DNA from: Armatimonadota bacterium
Lineage (GTDB): Bacteria > Armatimonadota > Fimbriimonadia > Fimbriimonadales > Fimbriimonadaceae
Length of the DNA: 64,000 bases
Assembly (NCBI GenBank): GCA_027451905.1
Contig: DAIDHV010000001.1
Coordinates: forward strand, 534,667-598,666
Direction: 5' to 3'
Below, piece after piece: positions 25,676 to 52,427 of this stretch. Below the pieces are notes generated by a model. That model was given only the letters and a program-made list of their open reading frames with translations, ran no database searches and was not told the origin of the DNA. A program made the position numbers and the translations under genes. Each line of letters opens with the position of its first letter. Positions within the stretch are counted from its first letter, which is position 1.

Positions 25676-25782
25676 ATAACTTGATTATTAACTGGCCCAC
25701 GCCAGGAGCACGCCCCGAACCCGATTGGGCTGTACACTAGGCAGTAGTGACAAGCCCATCATGGGTGAGGCAGGAGCGATCA

Positions 25783-26697
25783 ATGACAGAACGCATCAGA
25801 GAGATTTTAAGTTGGTATGGAGGAGACAATCCTGGCACCCTTTCGAATTTAGCCAAGCTATTGAACCACGGGAAACTAGGTGGCACCGGAAAACTGGTGA
25901 TCCTTCCCGTAGATCAAGGTTTTGAGCACGGACCCTTGCGATCCTTTTTGCCAAATCCTCCCGGGTTCAATCCCCGTTACCATATGGAACTGGCAATTGA
26001 AGCTGGTTGTAGTGCGTACGCGGCTCCACTTGGGGCTTTAGAAGCAACCGCAAGGGACTATGCGGGAGAAGTGCCGCTGATCCTGAAAGGCAACCATCAC
26101 GATCTCACGATGGATGAGGCAGATCCCACCCAGGCTCACACCGCAACGGTTCCCGACGCCCTTCGACTCGGCTGTTGCGCGGTCGGCTACACGATTTACC
26201 CGGGATCGGAGCGCCGATTTGAAATGTACGAGATGGTTCGCGACCAGATTGCAGAAGCCAAAGAATGCGGATTGGTCACCATCCTTTGGAGCTATCCTCG
26301 GGGTTCTGGCATCTCCAAAGATGGAGAAACGGCTCTTGATGTGGCAGCCTATGCGGCTCATATCGCCTGTCAACTGGGGGCACATATTGTCAAGGTTAAA
26401 CTTCCCTCCCCTAAAATTGAATTTGATGCCAACCAAAAGGCCATAGACAAGGCGGGCATTCAAACGGACACATTGGCAGATCGAGTGGGGCACATTGTCA
26501 AATCTGCCTTCGACGGCAGGCGCATTGTTATTTTCTCGGGCGGTGCCATGGTTTCTGATGATGAGATCATCGCTGATGCTCAAGCCATTCATAATGGAGG
26601 CGGGTTTGGCTCGATCATGGGTCGAAATAGCTTCCAGCGCCCTAAAGAGGCCGCGCTCCAACTTCTCCATTCGGTCATGGACATATACGCAAATTGA
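25783..26697 (+). CDS. Class I fructose-bisphosphate aldolase (DhnA/archaeal type)
   Basis: This 304-residue TIM-barrel aldolase has VILPVDQGFEHGP (~45), LKGNHHD (~105), the Schiff-base lysine region HIVKVKLPSP (~205) and a C-terminal phosphate-binding GGAMVSDDE ... GSIMGRNSFQR. It cleaves fructose 1,6-bisphosphate in glycolysis, or makes it in gluconeogenesis, without metal. ATG 25783 follows CAGGAG at ideal spacing; the open frame extends to 25747. A decayed copy of its 3' end is found ~440 bp downstream at 27135-27251. Confidence 0.93.
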   Translation: MTERIREILSWYGGDNPGTLSNLAKLLNHGKLGGTGKLVILPVDQGFEHGPLRSFLPNPPGFNPRYHMELAIEAGCSAYAAPLGALEATARDYAGEVPLILKGNHHDLTMDEADPTQAHTATVPDALRLGCCAVGYTIYPGSERRFEMYEMVRDQIAEAKECGLVTILWSYPRGSGISKDGETALDVAAYAAHIACQLGAHIVKVKLPSPKIEFDANQKAIDKAGIQTDTLADRVGHIVKSAFDGRRIVIFSGGAMVSDDEIIADAQAIHNGGGFGSIMGRNSFQRPKEAALQLLHSVMDIYAN

Positions 26698-27727
26698 TTT
26701 GTCTTTGGAAAGCTAGTTGGCCGCAAACGGAGAATCGCGAAAGTGCGCGATAACTCATTCTTGCTTCAATCCCTTTTTCGGTCATCTTGAGTTGAACTGT
26801 CGATTTGATGGGGTGAATTCCAGGATTTTTGAGTAGCAAATTGAAGGTTGGTAGCAAAAGAGTGGTTAGAAAACCTTATGCAAGCAATGATTTTACAACC
26901 CATTTGCCCATAACGCCAGCCCCAAAGCACACTGGTTGGCGTTTCGCCACAGATTATGAAAGCAGTTTAAAGGTCAACAATTATTTCCTTTTTCATTGAC
27001 ATTTCTTCTTAACGAGCAGTTTTCAAGAAAAACCAAAGATCTTAGTCTAAATTCAATCTGTGGGCTAGATGCGTCGCAAAATGGGCCCTTATGGTAGCGA
27101 CAGTTGACTTTACGAATGCAGAATCAGTACAAACGCCATTTATGGTGCGGGAGGAGGAATTGGCTCGATCATGGGTCGAAATCACTTCCAGCACTCTAAA
27201 GAAGTAGCACTTGAGCCCTTAGTAAATGCGATGGAGACTGACAAAGGTTAAATGCGAAATGCTTGGTTAAAATACGCGCCATGTTGCATTTTGAAGGTCC
27301 AAATTTTGCGATAGGTTACGGCCACTTCGATGACAAGGTTTTTGGCAAAAACTAGCTGTCAAGTCTTGGGAGCACTACGTGTCAACCTTTAGGTTACTCT
27401 CTAGTCCTTCCCCGTTGAAGACTCCTGATTGACAATGCATCTATTGAAACGACCCTTTCGTAATGTCGAAAATCCGTCAAACGAGAGATTGGTTCATATG
27501 TCTATGGTTAGAAACGATACAAAGGACATACTGCAGTATCATCTACACCTTAATCAAACACAAAATAAATAAGGCACAAATTAACCAAGTATATGTACTA
27601 GATTTTGCACCATAATCGCCTTAAATACTCCTTAGGTGAAGCATTTAAGTGACTTCAACTAATTATTCATCATATACTAAGTTCGTTGGCTAATCAATAG
27701 ATTGTGCCAATGAATTGAGGAAGGAAA
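26698..27727. other. 1-kb AT-rich intergenic region with gene relics
   Basis: No intact gene of credible length is seen on either strand. The only recognisable content is the aldolase relic (27135-27251) and a 24-codon ATG-TAG frame at 27281-27355 (starting MLHFEGPNF) that might be a further fragment of unknown origin. The last ~200 bp are very AT-rich and probably carry the promoter of the PEP-CTERM gene, whose RBS GAGGAAGG lies just before 27728. Confidence 0.7.
27135..27251 (+). pseudogene. Relic of class I fructose-bisphosphate aldolase C-terminus
   Basis: In frame from 27135 this reads AIYGAGGGIGSIMGRNHFQ, then HSKEVALEPLVNAMETDKG and TAA. It parallels the C-terminus of the intact aldolase (AIHNGGGFGSIMGRNSFQ, then RPKEAALQLLHSVMD). 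The central TTGGCTCGATCATGGGTCGA is identical at DNA level. No start codon, RBS or upstream aldolase sequence remains, so it is a truncated duplication remnant. Confidence 0.85.
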
Positions 27728-43643: not shown

Positions 43644-43679
43644 GATCGTCGCCAATTGGCGGCGATCCTTTTGTTTTTT
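43644..43679 (+). terminator. Rho-independent terminator
   Basis: GATCGTCGCC (43644-43653) pairs with GGCGGCGATC (43658-43667), with one G-T wobble and an AATT loop, followed by CTTTTGTTTTTT. It ends the small secreted-protein transcript just upstream of the first VOC gene. Confidence 0.9.
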
Positions 43680-43733
43680 CTACCTGCAGTTTTCCTTCGC
43701 GAGTTTTGGACGGCAGCAGGTACACATCCATGC

Positions 43734-44102
43734 ATGTTAAAAGTGCAGAGCCTTGGTCAGATTGCGTACCAGGTTCAGGATGTCCAAAAGAGTACGGAGT
43801 TTTTTCGAGATGTGGTGGGCCTGCCTTTTCTGTTTTCAGCAGGGCCCAACCTTGCTTTCTTTGATCTCAACGGCTGTCGGCTAATGGTAACTCGTGACGG
43901 AAGCCAACAGGAGACCAGGAATTCTATCCTTTACTTTTTAGTGAACTCTATTAACGAGGCTTATGAGGCTCTGGATGGCCAAGTCAAGCGAGTAGATGAA
44001 CCCCACCTGATTGCGGAAATGGCAGATCACGATCTTTATATGTTTTTTATTGAAGATGGTCAGGGAAACACAGTTGGGTTTATGGAAGAAAGGCCAAAGT
44101 AA
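43734..44102 (+). CDS. VOC-family small protein, copy 1
   Basis: This 122-residue protein is counted from ATG 43734; the longer frame from 43656 crosses the upstream terminator. It has two VOC-fold halves (LGQIAYQVQDVQKSTEFF; then SILYFLVNSINEAYEAL) and the late motif GQGNTVGFMEE, where the final Glu normally coordinates metal. FSAGPNLAFFDLNG and DHDLYMFFIEDG are shared with the copy at 47654. It stands 45 nt before a large secreted STN-type gene, an arrangement repeated at 47654-50161. The function is unknown. Confidence 0.8.
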   Translation: MLKVQSLGQIAYQVQDVQKSTEFFRDVVGLPFLFSAGPNLAFFDLNGCRLMVTRDGSQQETRNSILYFLVNSINEAYEALDGQVKRVDEPHLIAEMADHDLYMFFIEDGQGNTVGFMEERPK

Positions 44103-44147: not shown

Positions 44148-46256
44148 ATGGCAGTTCGTCCTTTTTTCAATTGCGCTTCCGTTGCTGTTTTTTGTTCGTT
44201 GTCGATGCTGAGTGGTCAGTCTTTGGCGGCTCAGAATGATCAAAAGCTAATCACTCTTGATGCTCCGGGATGGTCACTAAGGAGGATTTGTTCTGCTATT
44301 TCTAGCCAAATTGGCCAGCAGGTTGAGCCACACGGAAGTTGCGTTGATGACTACCTGATCATTCATGTCCACAATGTTCCATGGCCCACTCTTATGAAGA
44401 AACTGGCTTGGGTTGAATATGGCAAGTGGTACATGGACGGCAATACCCTTACTTTAGAGACGGACAAAGAGTTGGTGGCAGCGAGAATCCAACAGAATGA
44501 AGATGCACTTGCCCAGCGGCTAGCCGATCAGTTCAAAAAAGATGCGGCAACATCGTCGGCTCCGTTCAATTCCAACGAACTGGTTAAGGAACTCAAACTT
44601 AAAGCCGACCTCTATGCGCGAAAGGATACAAGCAATGAGCCCGCCAATGTCAAAGAGTCATTGGGAATTGAGTACGCATCTATCCGGCTTCGGTCAAAAA
44701 TGCCTCTTCACGCTGGATTCAAAAAAATAATCGAGTCCTTTCCTCCCAAAGATCTTGCTGAGATTCCCAACGGGGGGCGATTCGTTTTTTCTAACCACCC
44801 CACTTCCCTTCAATATGCAATGCCGGCAACGGCTATGACCGTGATTAAGCAGGCGGTCGCCAATCAGCTCAAATTAATTAAAGCGGCTCGATCTGCGGGG
44901 ATAACCCTCCGGGACATGCAATGCAATGGGAGCCCCGCTAATATATCGCTTGACGACACCTTCGAAGTGTCCGCTCGTCAGAGTTTTGGCATTGGCATTC
45001 AGGCCAGCTTCAGGATCTTCGGACCAAAGGGCGATCTTGTCTTGCAAGATTCTAGACAATTTGGATTCCTCGGCGCCGGCATGAATCTCAATCTAACTCC
45101 GAAAAATGAACTTTATAAGAAATTAGACCCCGTCGCTGCCCAGAACTTTAAATCTTTGAATCTGTTTAGCTCTATCCCACCATCTCCGGAATTCCGCTAT
45201 ATTCTGAGGCACCCTGAAAAGTTTGACCCTCTTGCAGTTGTTCTTGAGCCCATTCTTAAAGTGATTGCCCCTCAAGAAAACATCCTTATTCGAAATGACT
45301 ACCTCCTTTTTTTGGCGTCAGGGACGGACGTGTTCAAGAATGGAGATGAAGTTCCTATGAACCTTTTGACCTCCGCAATTGCAAAAATGGTTTCGGACGA
45401 GGATACAAATCAAAACTGGCTCGCCCTTAGGACAAACTATGTGATTACCAGCGCATTGCAGTCAATCCCTCGTGCTCAATACCAAGACCTCATTCAAGGA
45501 ATTTCCACGAACGGTCTCGTTGATTTTTTAAGCGCGGTGAAGTATGCGGGGGCGGTAGGTCCTTCGGGCTATTTTAGCGGCCAATTAACTAGCCCTTTCG
45601 TTTCTGCCCTCGCTTACGGGCAAAACCCCTTAGAGCAGGACCAGCAAAATTGGATGATTTTCAGCCTTGTCGGGTCGCTTGATGCTGGTCAATTGGCACA
45701 AGCTCAAAGCTCTCGCGGCTTAAACATGGCTGAACTTCCTTCCGAACCGGCTAAAATATTCAAGAAAATCTTGCTTGATAAGTTTATCACGGGACTAATC
45801 TATGCTCAGGGCGGAAGGATTCCAATGCAAAAACCAACCATCATAGAAGATGAGCCGACCTATGCATTTGCCAATTCCATGCCAAAGGCGATCCTTTCAA
45901 TCCAAGTTAAGCGAAACGATGTCATTCTCTACAGCTACAAATTTGAAAATGCAGGCTTACCTTCTAGCCCTCAGCAAAACCTAGCTTCTGATCCCACCAC
46001 ATTTGCAGAGACAATCTATTCTCAAAAATTCAACCATCAAATGCATTATGACTTCAGCCATCTCCGGGTTTCGCCTCAAGAGACGGTAACGATTTCAATT
46101 TTATTTCCAGAAACAAAGATGGCAGCTCTCACCGCTCAATTTGTTACCCGCGCCCACACCACCCAAGTCTATTCTGGTTGGCAAGAACTTCCAGCCCCAC
46201 TGAAAACCAAGATTGAATCTCAATTGAAAAAGATGAACTATAAGCCGGGAAATTAA
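44148..46256 (+). CDS. Large secreted protein with STN-like N-terminal domain, paralog 1
   Basis: This 702-residue exported protein has a signal peptide ending near SLAAQN. Residues ~35-110 follow the secretin/TonB short N-terminal (STN) pattern: LITLDAPGWSLRRICSAISS, IGQQVEPHGSC, then HVHNVPWPTLMKKLAWVEYG and a DGNTLTLE end. Two cysteines (RRIC and HGSC) are conserved in all three paralogs and may form a disulfide. The remaining ~590 residues match no family I know. Shared blocks include FSNHPTSLQY, HPEKFDPLAV, GSLDAGQLAQAQ and DEPTYAFANSMPKA. No secretin or TonB channel domain is present. It follows VOC copy 1. Confidence 0.82.
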   Translation: MAVRPFFNCASVAVFCSLSMLSGQSLAAQNDQKLITLDAPGWSLRRICSAISSQIGQQVEPHGSCVDDYLIIHVHNVPWPTLMKKLAWVEYGKWYMDGNTLTLETDKELVAARIQQNEDALAQRLADQFKKDAATSSAPFNSNELVKELKLKADLYARKDTSNEPANVKESLGIEYASIRLRSKMPLHAGFKKIIESFPPKDLAEIPNGGRFVFSNHPTSLQYAMPATAMTVIKQAVANQLKLIKAARSAGITLRDMQCNGSPANISLDDTFEVSARQSFGIGIQASFRIFGPKGDLVLQDSRQFGFLGAGMNLNLTPKNELYKKLDPVAAQNFKSLNLFSSIPPSPEFRYILRHPEKFDPLAVVLEPILKVIAPQENILIRNDYLLFLASGTDVFKNGDEVPMNLLTSAIAKMVSDEDTNQNWLALRTNYVITSALQSIPRAQYQDLIQGISTNGLVDFLSAVKYAGAVGPSGYFSGQLTSPFVSALAYGQNPLEQDQQNWMIFSLVGSLDAGQLAQAQSSRGLNMAELPSEPAKIFKKILLDKFITGLIYAQGGRIPMQKPTIIEDEPTYAFANSMPKAILSIQVKRNDVILYSYKFENAGLPSSPQQNLASDPTTFAETIYSQKFNHQMHYDFSHLRVSPQETVTISILFPETKMAALTAQFVTRAHTTQVYSGWQELPAPLKTKIESQLKKMNYKPGN

Positions 46257-46480
46257 CCGCTTTAGCGATCCTGTTGATTTGAGAGGTTCCAGGTTGAATA
46301 ACAACCTTGCTATTTGTGAATTGATAGGTTTTGTTCAGCGGACCAATCATCGGTACTAAACCGCAATCTCAACCCGATTTTGTCTGGTTAAGCTAAGCTG
46401 AAATAAAGGTGGTCCGCCCCCGTAAATTGAAGACATCATAACTAGAGTTCTTCTCGTCAAGAAAATACGAAGAGAAGACA

Positions 46481-46786
46481 ATGAAAAGATCAAGATTCAG
46501 CGACGAGCAAATCGTTCGCATATTGCAAGAGGCTCAGACGGGCCAGTTGACGGTGAGTGAGACCTGTCGCAAGCATGGTTTAAGTGAGCCGACATATTAT
46601 ATTTGGAAACGCAAGTTCCAGGGGATGGAAACAGATGATGTTCGTCGTTTGCGTGAACTAGAACGCGAGAACGCCATTCTCAAAAAACTGCTTGCTGAGA
46701 GAGACTTAGAAGTAGACGCAGTCCGGAGCCTCCTCCGAAAAAACGGATGGTCGCTCCCGTGCGAGTCTCGGGGGCGAAATTCCTGA
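46481..46786 (+). CDS. IS3-family transposase OrfA
   Basis: This 101-residue OrfA has an HTH_Tnp_1-type DNA-binding domain (FSDEQIVRILQEAQTG, VSETCRKHGLSEPTYYIWKR) and a leucine-zipper-like helix (LRELERENAILKKLLAERDL). It binds the terminal repeats and regulates transposition. An A6 run at 46738-46743 near its end lies within the overlap with orfB, which is in the -1 frame. Programmed frameshifting there would fuse OrfA and OrfB into the active OrfAB transposase, as in other IS3 elements. Confidence 0.93.
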   Translation: MKRSRFSDEQIVRILQEAQTGQLTVSETCRKHGLSEPTYYIWKRKFQGMETDDVRRLRELERENAILKKLLAERDLEVDAVRSLLRKNGWSLPCESRGRNS

Positions 46787-47616
46787 TGCAACAAGGAGTG
46801 ACTACAAGGCGTGCAAGCTATATTTGCAACTTGTCCACCGCTGAGCTTTATCGCCAGAAGCGGCCAGATCACAATGAAGAGCTTCGCAGGCGCCTTCTTG
46901 AAATCGCAAGGCCTGGCGCTGGCTATCGCCAGCTCTGGGCGACGGTCAAGGAGGAATTTGCGCCCTTGAACATCAAGCGGGTCTATCGCCTGTATCGCCA
47001 ATTGAACATGGCTAAGAAAGTTAGATATCGCAAGAAACGCTCAGGGAATTTGCTTGTTCAATGTGCGACTGGTCCAAACCAAGTTTGGTGCCTTGACTTT
47101 TGCCATGACTGGGCGATGAACGGAACAAAACTCAAGATCCTTGCGATTAAAGATGAATTCACCAAAGAATGTTTGAGCTTGGAGGTCGCAACATCGATCA
47201 CTGGTCATAAAGTTCGCGATGTGTTAGGCCAAACCATTGCTAACTATGGTGCGCCTGCGTACCTGCGAAGTGATAATGGTCCAGAGTTCATCTCAAGAGC
47301 GCTGAGCTTGTATTTAGCCGAGACTGGCGTAAAGAGTCATTTCATCAAACCAGGTTCGCCCTGGCAAAACGGTCATGCTGAGAGTTTCATGTCTAGGCTC
47401 CGAGCTGAATGTCTCAATGCTGAAGTCTTTGCAAACCTTGCGGACGCTCAGCTTAAGTTGCACCTGTTCCGCAGCTTCTACAACCAAGAGCGGCCCCACT
47501 CCGCCTTAAATTACAAGACTCCGGACTCCTATCGCACTGGTTACTGTGAACTCAGTCGGGCTACGCCCTCCCTCGTTCACAGTAACCAGATATCATCAAA
47601 GGAGAACTCTATTTAA
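46747..47616 (+). CDS. IS3-family transposase OrfB (DDE integrase core)
   Basis: This 289-residue integrase-fold catalytic part has the DDE triad visible as Asp in QVWCLDFCHDW, Asp in LRSDNGPEFIS and Glu in WQNGHAESFMSRLRAE, with the family ending FYNQERPHSALNYKTP. The reading frame is intact, with no stop or frameshift beyond the natural orfA/orfB junction. The nominal ATG 46747 may not be used; expression is probably by -1 frameshift from orfA. The element therefore looks potentially active. Confidence 0.93.
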   Translation: MVAPVRVSGAKFLMQQGVTTRRASYICNLSTAELYRQKRPDHNEELRRRLLEIARPGAGYRQLWATVKEEFAPLNIKRVYRLYRQLNMAKKVRYRKKRSGNLLVQCATGPNQVWCLDFCHDWAMNGTKLKILAIKDEFTKECLSLEVATSITGHKVRDVLGQTIANYGAPAYLRSDNGPEFISRALSLYLAETGVKSHFIKPGSPWQNGHAESFMSRLRAECLNAEVFANLADAQLKLHLFRSFYNQERPHSALNYKTPDSYRTGYCELSRATPSLVHSNQISSKENSI

Positions 47617-47653
47617 ACTGACTTCAATAAAAGGGGCAGGTCAAAGGCTTGAT

Positions 47654-48034
47654 ATGCTAAATTCCCGTTATCATTTGGGCCAAATTGCCTGGCAAGTTCA
47701 AAACGTTCAAAATGTCAGTTCCTTTTTTCCAGAGGTTCGTGGATGCCCGTTTCTCTTTTCGGCAGGACCCAATCTCTCCTTCTTTGACCCCTGGGGGGTT
47801 CGCTTGATGATCACTTCGGATCGAAGCAACGCCCCTGCATCAAACTCCGTCATTTACTTTCGTGTTCAATCGGTGGACGATACCTATGCTGCGATCAAAG
47901 ACAAGGTAACCGCGGTTGATCAGCCTCACTTGGTTGCAAACATGCCCGACCATGATCTGTACATGTTCTTTATTGAGAATCCGTAGAAAAATACGATTGG
48001 GTTCATGGAAAAGCGCAAAAATGGGGCGAAATAG
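47654..48034 (+). pseudogene. VOC-family small protein, copy 2, with in-frame TAG near the 3' end
   Basis: This is a paralog of the gene at 43734, sharing LGQIAWQVQNV, PFLFSAGPNLSFFD and PDHDLYMFFIEN. At 47984-47986 a TAG stands where copy 1 has the CAG (Gln) of EDGQGNTVGF, so one C-to-T change explains it. The frame resumes with KNTIGFMEKRKNGAK to a second TAG at 48034. The truncated product (111 residues) loses the last strand and its Glu, so activity is doubtful. The IS element lies 10 bp upstream of its ATG and has duplicated the AAGG of its RBS. Confidence 0.8.
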
Positions 48035-48067: not shown

Positions 48068-50161
48068 ATGAAAATAAATAAACTGGCCCAATCCTTTGCT
48101 TGGATTTTGTTATCACTTCCCGCAGTCGCAAATTCGAGGACGCCCACCAATCAATCTCAAAAATTGGTGAGCCTCGATGCTCCGGGATGGCCTTTAAGAA
48201 GGATTTGCGCTTCAATCTCCAAGCAAATTGGGCAGCAGGTTGAGCCACACGGATCTTGTGTGACTGATGTGCTTATTGTTCATGTCCACAACGTGCCTTG
48301 GCCCGTTCTTATGAAGAAACTGGCGTGGGTTGAGTACGGCAAATGGTACCGAGACGGTAGCACCCTGACATTAGAAAGAGACAAAGCTCAAATTACCGCA
48401 AAGCAGCAAGAAAACGCCGATCTACTTGCAAAGAGGCTGGTGGATCAGTTCAAAAAGGAAGATGCCGTCAACGACTTGCCCTTTGATGCCACCGCACTCG
48501 CCAGGGAAATCAAACTGGCAGTAGATGACTACGTTCGCAAGCACAAAGTCCCCAACGAAACCACTGTTGAAGAATCGGAGCAGGGCGCAGAGTCAGTAAT
48601 ATTCGAACTGCGAAATAAAATGCCGCTTGTTGTGGGCTTCGACGAAATTCTCGAGTCACTACCATTGAAGAGACTCGCTGAACTTCAGGTGGGACACCGC
48701 ATTGTATTTTCCAATCACCCAACTTCGCTTCAGTATTCAATTCCGGATAAGGCAACAAAGATCCTAAGCAACCTTATTGCTAACACGACTGCATTTCGTG
48801 ACGCTCTGATAGCGGACGGAATGCAAAGTCTTTTGAAAATGCCCTATCTAGGCCTTGGCGATCTTCGCCCAAGCGATGTCTTTGAGATTTCGGTAAAGAA
48901 ATTCAGAAGTGATGATATCGATGCTACATTTCGGATTTTCGGCCCCCTTGGTTCTCTTATCACTGGTGATGAAAAATTATTCCGCTTAGGAGATGAAGAC
49001 CAGCAAGGGGTCCCTCTAATCAATAATGTGCCGACGGCAAACCTAAGCCCCGCGAATGTCCGGAACTATAGGGTGCTAATTAATCCTTCCGAAGAGGTAG
49101 CTTCGCCTCAACTTAGGCATATGTTGAGGCATCCTGAAAAGTATGATCCGCTTGCTGTGATGCTAGATCCGATTTTGAAGGCGACTGAACCTGGCAAAAA
49201 TATGATCATTAATGATGACCTACTTATAGGGGCTCTTGTGTCAGATGTTACATTTTGCCCAGCCGCAAAAATCCCCAAAAACGTTCTTTCGGACCGCTAC
49301 TTTAAGTCTGTCTCCGAACAACAATCTACTGCGACCTGGTTGATCTGCCGCCCGGACCACGTTTTTCGATACTTCCATCAAGGCACACCCCAAGCCATCC
49401 CGCGCGCCGCCTATCGAGACCTTATTCACGGAATTGCACGCAATGGAATGATGAACTTTATGAGTGCAATGAGATTTGTAAGTAGCTTTGGACCCAACGG
49501 GTACTTTTTAAGCCCAGCAATCGATCGATATCTTGAAGTCCTTACCTATAACACCAATTCACTTGAACAATTTGCTCCTTTTCGCCAAAGCTGGCTTGTC
49601 TTTGACCTCGCAGGATCGCTTGATGCAAGCAAGCTTGCCCAGGCTGAAACGCCTAAGGGTCTCAACCTTGCTCAACTTCCATCAAAGCCCGCAAATGTTC
49701 TCAAGGCGATTTTGTTCGATAAGTTCAGCTATAACCGTGACGGGTGGGTAACTACGATTCAGGGAGAGCCCACTAATGCATTTGCAACTTCCATGCCTGC
49801 AGCTAGGCTCACAATTACTTCAAAAAAAGAAACTGTCTACACCTATAACTTTCAATATCCAAATGTTCCTGAAAAATTTACGGTGGCCATCCCTCTGGAC
49901 ATGCTCGCTTCGAGTATAGAGATTGCAAAATATCACCCTAAAATGCACCCTAGAATTACAAGATTAAGATTGGAGCCACAGCTAACCATAACCTTGAAAG
50001 TAACAATTTGGGGTCGCAAGTTTCCAATAGGAATCGCTACTTTTGTAACGCGAGGCTTCACTAAAAAAGTGTATCCGACGTGGCATGACTTTCCTTCCCG
50101 CGAAAAGTCTGAAATTGAATCTGATTTAAAGAAGCTTGCGCTTCCAGCCAGGCACCAATAG
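48068..50161 (+). CDS. Large secreted protein with STN-like N-terminal domain, paralog 2
   Basis: This 697-residue exported protein has a signal peptide ending near AVANSRT. The STN-like domain (~35-110) contains LVSLDAPGWPLRRICASISK, IGQQVEPHGSC and HVHNVPWPVLMKKLAWVEYG; both conserved cysteines are kept. Outside that domain it is the most divergent of the three. It keeps FSNHPTSLQY, HPEKYDPLAV and GSLDASKLAQAE, but its C-terminus (TIWGRKFPIGIATFVTRGF) and tail differ. No membrane anchor is visible after the signal peptide. It lies 33 nt after the broken VOC copy 2. Confidence 0.82.
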   Translation: MKINKLAQSFAWILLSLPAVANSRTPTNQSQKLVSLDAPGWPLRRICASISKQIGQQVEPHGSCVTDVLIVHVHNVPWPVLMKKLAWVEYGKWYRDGSTLTLERDKAQITAKQQENADLLAKRLVDQFKKEDAVNDLPFDATALAREIKLAVDDYVRKHKVPNETTVEESEQGAESVIFELRNKMPLVVGFDEILESLPLKRLAELQVGHRIVFSNHPTSLQYSIPDKATKILSNLIANTTAFRDALIADGMQSLLKMPYLGLGDLRPSDVFEISVKKFRSDDIDATFRIFGPLGSLITGDEKLFRLGDEDQQGVPLINNVPTANLSPANVRNYRVLINPSEEVASPQLRHMLRHPEKYDPLAVMLDPILKATEPGKNMIINDDLLIGALVSDVTFCPAAKIPKNVLSDRYFKSVSEQQSTATWLICRPDHVFRYFHQGTPQAIPRAAYRDLIHGIARNGMMNFMSAMRFVSSFGPNGYFLSPAIDRYLEVLTYNTNSLEQFAPFRQSWLVFDLAGSLDASKLAQAETPKGLNLAQLPSKPANVLKAILFDKFSYNRDGWVTTIQGEPTNAFATSMPAARLTITSKKETVYTYNFQYPNVPEKFTVAIPLDMLASSIEIAKYHPKMHPRITRLRLEPQLTITLKVTIWGRKFPIGIATFVTRGFTKKVYPTWHDFPSREKSEIESDLKKLALPARHQ

Positions 50162-50345
50162 ATGAACACCACACTTAGAATAAAGGTTGGTGAAATGGGC
50201 TGGTCGGCGAGCTCTGTGAATTGTTCTTGGCTAGGGTTGCTTGGTGCCTTGCGCCAAGCGGGCTACCCGCAAGAGAAAATCGCAATGATTCAATCATGCA
50301 AAAATCCATATTTGCCTTAACTTGATACAATAGCGAGTAACCAAA

Positions 50346-52427
50346 ATGAAAAAGATGACAGATAATATGCGCCGATACCTGCCGATTGTTTGCTTCATTG
50401 GAATGGGTTTCACCCAAGTTGCCTTGTCTAGCCAGACCGTACAATCGGTGACTTTAGATGCTCCCGGGTGGTCTTTAAGGCGGATTTGCGCTTCAATCTC
50501 CAAGCAGATTGGGCAGCAAGTTGAACCCCATGGATCTTGTGTGACTGACGTGCTTATTGTTCATGTCCACAATGTTCCATGGCCCACACTTATGAAGAAG
50601 CTGGCATGGGTGGAATATGGCAAGTGGTACATGGATGGCAACGTTCTCACGATCGAGCGAGACCATGCCCTTGTCCAAGCAAAGATCAAAGAGAATGTGG
50701 GCGCCCTAGCCAAACGGCTCGCCATCCAATTCAAAAAAGATGCCAATTCCAACCGGGCCTCCTTCGATCCCAATGCACTCGTTAAGGAACTGAAAATCAA
50801 GGTTGATCAAGACTCAAGGAAACAGCCAGGGAGCGAACCGGCTGATGTCAGACAGGAAATGGGAGTTGAAAATGGATACATTCAGCTTCAGATCGAAAAC
50901 AAATTGCCATTACAAAGAGGATTCAATAAAATCATTGAATCTTTTCCGCCCCAAGATCTTGCCGCGATTCCCAATGGAGCGCGCGTCGTCTTTTCCAATC
51001 ATCCGACGTCCCTCCAATATCGGCTTCCCGCTTCCGCATCCAGCGAAATTGAAAAGATCATTGCGAACCAGCACGAGTTCGAAAAAGCGGCCAGTGCGCA
51101 TGGGATTGCTTTGCCTGAATTTCAGTTTGGACAAGACCTGAAAAGCCTTTCCTTGAATGACACATTTGTCGTCTCTGTTCGCCAGATCTTAGGCATTGGC
51201 ATTCAAGCTGCCTTGCGGGTCTTTAATCAAAAGGGATCCATGATTAGCGAGTCAAACGGACAGTTTGGACTCCTCGGTCAAGGAATGTCGCTCGGCTCTG
51301 CATCAAAAAAGGTATCGACTGCCAAACTAGATGCGGTTGATGCCCGCAATTACAAGTCGCTAGCCCAATTCAGCCCGCTCCCTCCAACCCCTCAATTTAG
51401 ACAAGTTTTGCTCCATCCCGAAAAATTCGATCCCCTTGCGGTTGCGATCGAGCCAATCCTTAAGGCTATTGCCCCAAAAAAGAATGTCGTTATTCGCAAT
51501 GACAGCCTCATAATGATGACTACGGGAGCATACCAATTTAAGAATGGAGATGAGGTGCCCCTTGATTATCTTTCTTCGCCGATTGTGAAATTGGTGGCGG
51601 ATGAAGAATCAAGCCCAGAGTGGCTTGCGATTCGAACAAATTACATTACCCTTCTCAAGGGTCAGTCGATCCCCCGCTCCCCTTATGAAGACCTTGTCCA
51701 AGGAATCTCCTCCGATGGTCTTCTCAACTTTCTGTCCGCGATGAAATTTGCATCGGCAACCGGACCGGAAAGCTTTATTGTCAGCATGTTCGTGAGTCCG
51801 TTTATCGGAGCTTTGACGGACGGGCAGAACCCGCTGCTTGCCAACCAACGAACCTGGAACTTCTACTGCCTAGTCGGTTCGCTTGATGCCGGACAATTGG
51901 CTCAGGCAGAGAGAAAAACAGGACTTGACTTAGCCGGTCTCTTCTCTGAGCAACAAAAGATTTTGAAGTTGATTCTCCTCGATAAGTTCACCCATGCATA
52001 CTCAAATCGAATGCAGGTTCCCGTTTCCCTCGCTGACGAACCGACATACGCCTACGCTCAGTCAATGCCCCATGCAGTGTTGACGATTCGTTCCAAAGAA
52101 GAACCGGTGATTGGCTTTTCAAGCAAGTACGGCGATGATCTCAAATACCCCAAAATGACTCAGTATGCCACCGCCGATGAAATTGCAGGAACGATGGCGA
52201 GCATTAAATACAACCCGCAAGTCCACTACGATTTCACTCATCTGACCCTTTCGCGCCAGCAAACGGTGACAATGACAATCTCCTTTCCCGGCACCACAAT
52301 GGCAGCAATCGCAGCTCGTTTCGTGACCCGCACCCATAACAATCAGGTTTATTCCAGTTATAAGGATTTGCCAGCCCCGCTGAATCAGGAGATCGAAACC
52401 ACCCTCAAAAAGATGAAGGCGAGATGA
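50346..52427 (+). CDS. Large secreted protein with STN-like N-terminal domain, paralog 3
   Basis: This 693-residue exported protein has a signal peptide at ~10-30 (YLPIVCFIGMGFTQVALSSQ). Its STN-like segment (~37-110) is nearly identical at protein level to paralog 2 in the first half (ICASISKQIGQQVEPHGSCV) and to paralog 1 in the second half (LMKKLAWVEYGKWYMDGN), while the body resembles paralog 1 (FNKIIESFPPQDLAAIPNGA; GIGIQAALRVF; GSLDAGQLAQAE). No VOC gene precedes it; the 184-bp gap upstream shows no recognisable VOC remnant. An in-frame second ATG lies at 50355. Confidence 0.82.
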   Translation: MKKMTDNMRRYLPIVCFIGMGFTQVALSSQTVQSVTLDAPGWSLRRICASISKQIGQQVEPHGSCVTDVLIVHVHNVPWPTLMKKLAWVEYGKWYMDGNVLTIERDHALVQAKIKENVGALAKRLAIQFKKDANSNRASFDPNALVKELKIKVDQDSRKQPGSEPADVRQEMGVENGYIQLQIENKLPLQRGFNKIIESFPPQDLAAIPNGARVVFSNHPTSLQYRLPASASSEIEKIIANQHEFEKAASAHGIALPEFQFGQDLKSLSLNDTFVVSVRQILGIGIQAALRVFNQKGSMISESNGQFGLLGQGMSLGSASKKVSTAKLDAVDARNYKSLAQFSPLPPTPQFRQVLLHPEKFDPLAVAIEPILKAIAPKKNVVIRNDSLIMMTTGAYQFKNGDEVPLDYLSSPIVKLVADEESSPEWLAIRTNYITLLKGQSIPRSPYEDLVQGISSDGLLNFLSAMKFASATGPESFIVSMFVSPFIGALTDGQNPLLANQRTWNFYCLVGSLDAGQLAQAERKTGLDLAGLFSEQQKILKLILLDKFTHAYSNRMQVPVSLADEPTYAYAQSMPHAVLTIRSKEEPVIGFSSKYGDDLKYPKMTQYATADEIAGTMASIKYNPQVHYDFTHLTLSRQQTVTMTISFPGTTMAAIAARFVTRTHNNQVYSSYKDLPAPLNQEIETTLKKMKAR

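Follow-up and report, generated by a model that had tools for sequence, protein, structure and literature searches.

Gene conversion between tandem paralogs is described for TLR1 and TLR6 of mammals, where the conversions are reported to have been independent in several species (PMC2077338). Among bacteria, it is described for the PE, PPE and ESX paralogs of Mycobacterium tuberculosis, in which it is reported to generate diversity between isolates (PMC13061034). The locus analysed here lies in a window of 64,000 nucleotides, i.e. the whole stretch of DNA studied, from an Armatimonadota bacterium of the family Fimbriimonadaceae (GCA_027451905.1, contig DAIDHV010000001.1, forward-strand positions 534,667 to 598,666), and its three paralogs are designated P1, P2 and P3. 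As is reported for the mammalian pair, one conserved stretch of tandem paralogs is kept alike via conversion while the rest diverges (PMC2077338); that pair concerns mammalian receptors, a stretch of ~300 residues towards the C-terminus and a comparison of orthologs, whereas P1-P3 concern a bacterial N-terminal domain of ~70 residues, tracts of <100 bp and paralogs only. With the mycobacterial families they share intragenomic conversion between bacterial paralogs but they come from one genome and it is a conserved domain that is kept alike (PMC13061034). P1-P3 thus add a further case of gene conversion, itself a known process, from an unnamed gene family; literature searches on domain-limited conversion in bacteria and on the family yielded no paper about the latter, although this does not imply its absence in print.

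The genes and their neighbours are as follows, in coordinates of the window:

43656-44102, + strand: VOC/glyoxalase-type gene upstream of P1 (PF00903, E 2.1e-7), probably part of an old duplicated unit
44148-46256, + strand: P1, 702 aa, with the head at 44256-44459
46418-47636, + strand: insertion element separating P1 from the second VOC copy, with transposase and integrase-core domains
47654-48034, + strand: second copy of the VOC gene, ahead of P2, with a TAG stop inside it
48068-50161, + strand: P2, 697 aa, with the head at 48173-48376
50346-52427, + strand: P3, 693 aa, with the mosaic head at 50454-50657

The three genes have the same orientation and, judging from their sequences, are old tandem paralogs. 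The second VOC copy indicates an old duplication of the VOC gene together with its P gene, the two copies being identical in 24 of 64 same-residue codons (a raw count); there is no VOC gene ahead of P3. The insertion element, bounded by inverted repeats at 46418-46454 and 47600-47636, is one that we take to be IS3-type. Elsewhere the same genome—a draft assembly of 37 contigs—encodes two further full paralogs, P4 (41%) and P5 (26%), as well as a distant tandem pair, P6/P7. Orthologs of P1-P3 were sought among 60 relatives (none of the same genus), plasmids and named genomes, the last being scanned with P4 as well, with no close match; 41 of the 60 other genomes gave matches, the window's own genome being left out, all of them distant.

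For the head, i.e. the N-terminal ~70 residues, the predicted fold is N0/STN, as in the secretin-type N0 domains of PilQ, GspD and InvG and in the signalling domain of PupA. The model built from 11 sequences (pLDDT 71.5, pTM 0.68; an earlier one from 3 sequences, with pLDDT 41.5, was set aside) has, over residues 37-105, the order beta-alpha-beta-beta-alpha-beta-beta. The first Foldseek match is the PilQ N0 domain with E 0.017, nothing being found at E <= 0.001, and the best VIA match has Z 7.5 (under 8), with rmsd 2.2-2.3 over 74-75 residues (model residues 34-109); VIA rows 1-18 are what we take to be N0/STN-class chains. A profile of 16 relatives searched against the PDB again gave PilQ N0 as the best match (E 0.01); the 6 hits with E of 10 or less include a weak one to the PupA-type signalling domain (2a02, E 0.66). 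P1-P3 are without any Pfam match; Pfam STN does not match at E up to 1, and the commonest weak Pfam match, PF21305 (GspD N0), found in 3 of the 16 members with a best E of 0.048, stays below its curated cut-off (14 bits vs 27). The "STN head" of the original prediction thus stands as a statement about the predicted fold. Unlike in the secretin-type N0/STN proteins, none of the named families of Pfam or NCBIfam, those of secretins and beta-barrels included, is matched at cut-off by the ~600 residues after the head, and the structural searches, covering mainly the head, gave no credible match for the body. In other proteins N0 and STN domains serve in docking, and a docking role may likewise be the cause of the head's conservation.

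The alignment of the three heads is a patchwork, the closest partner of P3 changing within the domain, as seen in the following tracts:

50484-50570, + strand: P3 tract matching P2 (codon columns 54-82)
48203-48289, + strand: P2 partner tract of the preceding one, donor or recipient
50571-50639, + strand: P3 tract matching P1 (codon columns 83-105)
44373-44441, + strand: P1 partner tract of the preceding one
44307-44336, + strand: P1 patch matching P2 at 48224-48253 in 9 of 10 codons, P3 being different

In the first block P2 and P3 are identical at 81 of 87 nucleotides, or 23 of 29 codons, the six differing codons being all synonymous, while P3 and P1 differ there by 26 nucleotides and 6 replacements, so that six residues set P2 and P3 apart from P1. 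In the second, of 23 codons, the relationship is the opposite: P1 and P3 agree at 64 of 69 nucleotides with 5 differing codons and no replacement, P2 and P3 differing by 17 nucleotides and 2 replacements. Outside the head P3 is again closer to P1 (51% amino-acid identity, in comparison with 39% for P1-P2 and 37% for P2-P3). The sliding-window identities confirm in this way what had been read from the letters, namely a P3 head nearly identical in DNA to P2 in its first half and closer to P1 in its second half and beyond; the claim that the P2-P3 differences are synonymous holds for the 29 codons, but when the comparison is extended to 48173-48289 vs 50454-50570, 11 of the differing codons are synonymous and one is not (P/S). 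The agreement exceeds that of the same genes elsewhere, since the 23/29 identical codons of the first block compare with a share of 79/223 among the codons for shared residues beyond the head (Fisher p 1e-5), and the 13/18 degenerate codons of P1-P3 in the second block with 115/307 (Fisher p 0.005). It should be pointed out that the block limits, short as the blocks are, were set after looking at the alignment. The same holds for the patch at codons 61-70, absent from the original prediction and picked post hoc after inspection, where five of the six two-way sites group P1 with P2 (clustering bound 0.0016) and which may represent a third exchange. Followed along the alignment, the two-way sites are mixed in columns 44-53 (four P1=P2, two P1=P3, two P2=P3); beyond column 53 there are 8 P2=P3, then 5 P1=P2 with 1 P2=P3, then 12 P2=P3 with 1 P1=P3, and finally 12 P1=P3 with 4 P1=P2.

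The silent sites separate purifying selection from physical exchange. Outside the head, silent codons agree in every pair about as often as expected from codon usage (P1-P2 77/228 vs 81.0, P1-P3 115/307 vs 110.0, P2-P3 79/223 vs 78.5), so these parts are saturated, whereas within the head the agreement exceeds the expectation in all three (29/52 vs 19.1, 26/54 vs 19.9 and 32/56 vs 20.4, respectively). Because P1-P3 are saturated elsewhere, yet reach 13/18 in the second block, this block needs an exchange of its own, and simple inheritance appears from the sequences an unlikely source of the agreement. The unlinked P4, outside the head about as diverged from P1 (36%) as P2 is (39%), serves as the control: its head protein is 76-78% identical to those of P1-P3 but its silent sites are saturated, with no excess over the expectation when compared with P1-P3 (17/47 vs 17.5, 19/47 vs 17.3, 19/45 vs 16.8). 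The head is therefore under purifying selection, conversion or not, and the silent matches are found among P1-P3 only. All seven exact matches of at least 17 nt in the P1-P3 codon alignment (28, 25, 23, 23, 21, 18 and 17 nt) lie in the head, the longest elsewhere being 14 nt, which makes the head the place where pairing remains possible. Two P1-P3 body windows also reach silent agreement of 9/14 and 9/15, and minor exchange beyond the head might conceivably have taken place. A conserved-body-window control covered, of the three window pairs, P1-P3 alone (5 windows, maximum ratio 1.23); since the ratio reaches up to 2.01 in low-identity pairs, single-window ratios were given no weight.

Based on these results, short-tract gene conversion between the linked paralogs is very probably the best explanation, and conversion among the linked heads within the window is well supported by the partner switch and the head-limited silent excess; the recombination that had been proposed for the heads is upheld. 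The genes would have arisen through old tandem duplication and then diverged. Under purifying selection the protein of the N0/STN-fold head, and hence its DNA, would have stayed alike, whereas long matches would have disappeared from the bodies, and homologous pairing would therefore be possible mainly within the head. Tracts of ~30-90 bp would have been copied, in either direction as far as the P4 and P5 codons indicate, between P2 and P3 and between P1 and P3, with a possible further tract of ~30-90 bp between P1 and P2, by non-reciprocal homologous recombination, presumably of the RecA type, one domain staying in step while the remainder of each protein diverges.

Other genera also have such arrays, with 2-8 members, and the head-limited pattern is clear in the one designated G030, suggestive in G004 and absent from some other arrays of the Fimbriimonadaceae. 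Thirty tests were made on triples picked after the earlier results had been seen; six gave p < 0.05, all six segments lying in the head and two of them being the same P2~P3 segment. Only two survive correction for the 30 tests: P2~P3 in the P1-P2-P3 triple, and a~c in the G030 tandem array of another genus, where residues 21-93 are shared (53/78 sites, p 0.0002) and the body is not. The G004 segments a1~a3 (79-90, p 0.007) and a2~a4 (63-92, p 0.013) do not survive it; in this array a1 and a2, the closer pair, resemble two different distant neighbours towards the end of the head. Nothing significant came from the G013 and G017 triples, and the tandem pair P6/P7 has no head excess (4/22, expected 7.9). 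For the comparison across arrays, 39 pairs in 8 arrays were used from 73 pairs in 11 arrays, leaving out 4 recent duplicates and 30 pairs with body identity <25%, in which so many residues match by chance that the silent ratio carries no information; the mean head ratio is above that of the body in 7 of the 8 arrays, one being tied to two decimals (Wilcoxon p 0.195). The mean head ratios are 1.48 for G030, 1.39 for G004, 1.02 for L043 and 0.51 for P6/P7; the modest G061 excess (28/58 against 22.0 expected) is not taken as support. Among the 80 pairs with head identity of at least 50%, a head ratio of at least 1.26 is found in 20/22 linked pairs, 14/19 unlinked ones (all 14 from G004), 9/14 from the same genus and 0/25 from other genera. 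The unlinked G004 heads are at 1.26-1.52 times the expectation (14 pairs) and the G004 heads against the same-genus G033 at 1.12-1.54 (14 pairs), so that linkage alone is insufficient for that genus.

The original prediction took the reshuffling to imply selection on the head surface. Purifying selection is indeed seen, as the P4 head shows, but selection for reshuffling is not required, since for conversion limited to the one stretch still able to pair, purifying selection suffices. That the exchanges were kept by selection, favouring certain head combinations or heads fitting a common partner, appears rather unlikely. The six first-block residues separating P2 and P3 from P1 are in its favour, as are the head and body trees of 17 proteins from G004, G033 and G030, which reject each other (AU 1.7e-4, 2e-39), and TLR1/TLR6 offers a comparable case (PMC2077338). 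These trees are, however, weakly supported at many branches, the bodies being mostly 14-28% identical, and the unlinked G004 heads, 57-69% alike, are not clearly above the array heads compared with G33b (64-72%). Purifying selection explains the head conservation equally well, and the tract location is explained by where exact matches persist.

A single tree without exchange, with slow synonymous change in the head (by DNA-level constraint or 5'-end codon bias) and chance producing the pattern, is very unlikely and was rejected both as rate variation and as DNA-level constraint. The blocks are short, and the raised silent agreement of the unlinked and same-genus G004 heads would suit it, but the closest partner changes between adjoining blocks, the P4 head is not raised, no uniform silent excess runs across all head pairs, and the 25 pairs of heads from other genera are at 0.76-1.26. 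With codons permuted over the whole gene, the P2=P3 run (21/27 two-way sites) has p 0.0004, the other two pairings giving no significant run (p 0.078, 0.148); with the head simulated on the body tree (2000 replicates, with rate variation and third positions modelled apart), p is 0.0005 for the partner switch and 0.006 for the run. The AU support is modest, weaker than that of permutation and simulation: the (P1,P3) tree is rejected for block 54-82 (p 0.030, 0.035) but kept for the longer block 44-82 (p 0.05, 0.07), the (P2,P3) tree is rejected for blocks 83-105 (p 0.036-0.039) and 83-111 (p 0.014-0.019), and the body prefers (P1,P3) with (P2,P3) unrejected (p 0.146, 0.122). The head tract, with its identity raised at silent sites as well and diverged sequence on both sides, thus conflicts with its flanks beyond the one-tree expectation in permutation and simulation, the AU results being mixed; the signal along the alignment is not uniform, and simple duplication does not yield the patchwork, as had been claimed.

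It is still less probable, and was likewise rejected, that P3 was born as a chimera, from a single unequal crossover joining a P2-like gene to a P1-like one. The order of its parts, P2-like in the first half of the head and P1-like in the remainder, would fit such an origin. A single crossover did not bring in the head, however, since the signal peptides and upstream DNA of P2 and P3, intergenic DNA included, share nothing more than the matches of 7-8 nt expected by chance; P3 is not preceded by a VOC gene, the half of its head that resembles P1 has diverged from P1 much less than its body has (13/18 vs 115/307), and a patch within the tract has P1=P2. An assembly error that fused reads from two copies, conceivable in a draft of 37 contigs, was rejected too and is scarcely credible, P3 having 6 codons unlike those of P2 in the first block and 5 unlike those of P1 in the second, with 28 nt as the longest exact match along the alignment.

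Head-based trees of such paralogs are unreliable, and the unnamed, expanded family offers many arrays in which domain-limited conversion is testable. As a tentative and still doubtful generalization, the Fimbriimonadaceae may possess a family of probably exported proteins of ~700 residues that has expanded, often into tandem arrays, and in which repeated conversion within the arrays keeps the N0/STN head, as a docking module, in step while the bodies diversify. If true, it would be a bacterial TLR1/TLR6-like system of a "common plug, variable body".

In the body of the proteins, the part following the N-terminal head, many members of the family to which the tandem paralogs P1-P3 belong share the motif V-[FY]-S-x-x-P-[TN] (residues 211-222 of P1), and an alignment of 67 family members revealed two nearly invariant positions, D384 (99%) and R442 (97%; both P1 numbering). 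This shared motif, together with D384 and R442, could mark an active or binding site. With regard to the predicted structure of P1, the alignments to the secretin N-domain chains 3jc8, 4ec5, 5mp2 and 3ezj (four rows of the structure comparison) run from the head to residues 380-428, hinting at a second N-type domain within the body, at residues 375-428 of the model.

Two features lie between P1 and P2:

46418-47636, insertion element immediately upstream of the second VOC copy, containing two transposase-type ORFs between or within its inverted-repeat-bearing sequence
47654-48034, second VOC/glyoxalase-like copy, with an in-frame TAG close to its end

The inverted repeats of the element are 37 nt long and 76% complementary. 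Since the similarity of the second VOC copy carries on past its in-frame TAG, this copy looks decaying or truncated. A possible reading frame of 52 codons, beginning immediately after the P2 stop, is present in the gap before P3 (50162-50345).

Elsewhere in the window, a remnant at 27150-27211, containing no long open frame, is 82% identical over 62 nt to the 3'-terminal part of the presumably aldolase-like gene at 25747-26697.

The genome G004, one of the relatives, exhibits a large expansion of the unnamed P1-P3 family: eight members form a near-continuous tandem array (locus L045, 1-17717, on contig C8), and the whole genome contains 18 matching stretches, part of them inside a single gene.
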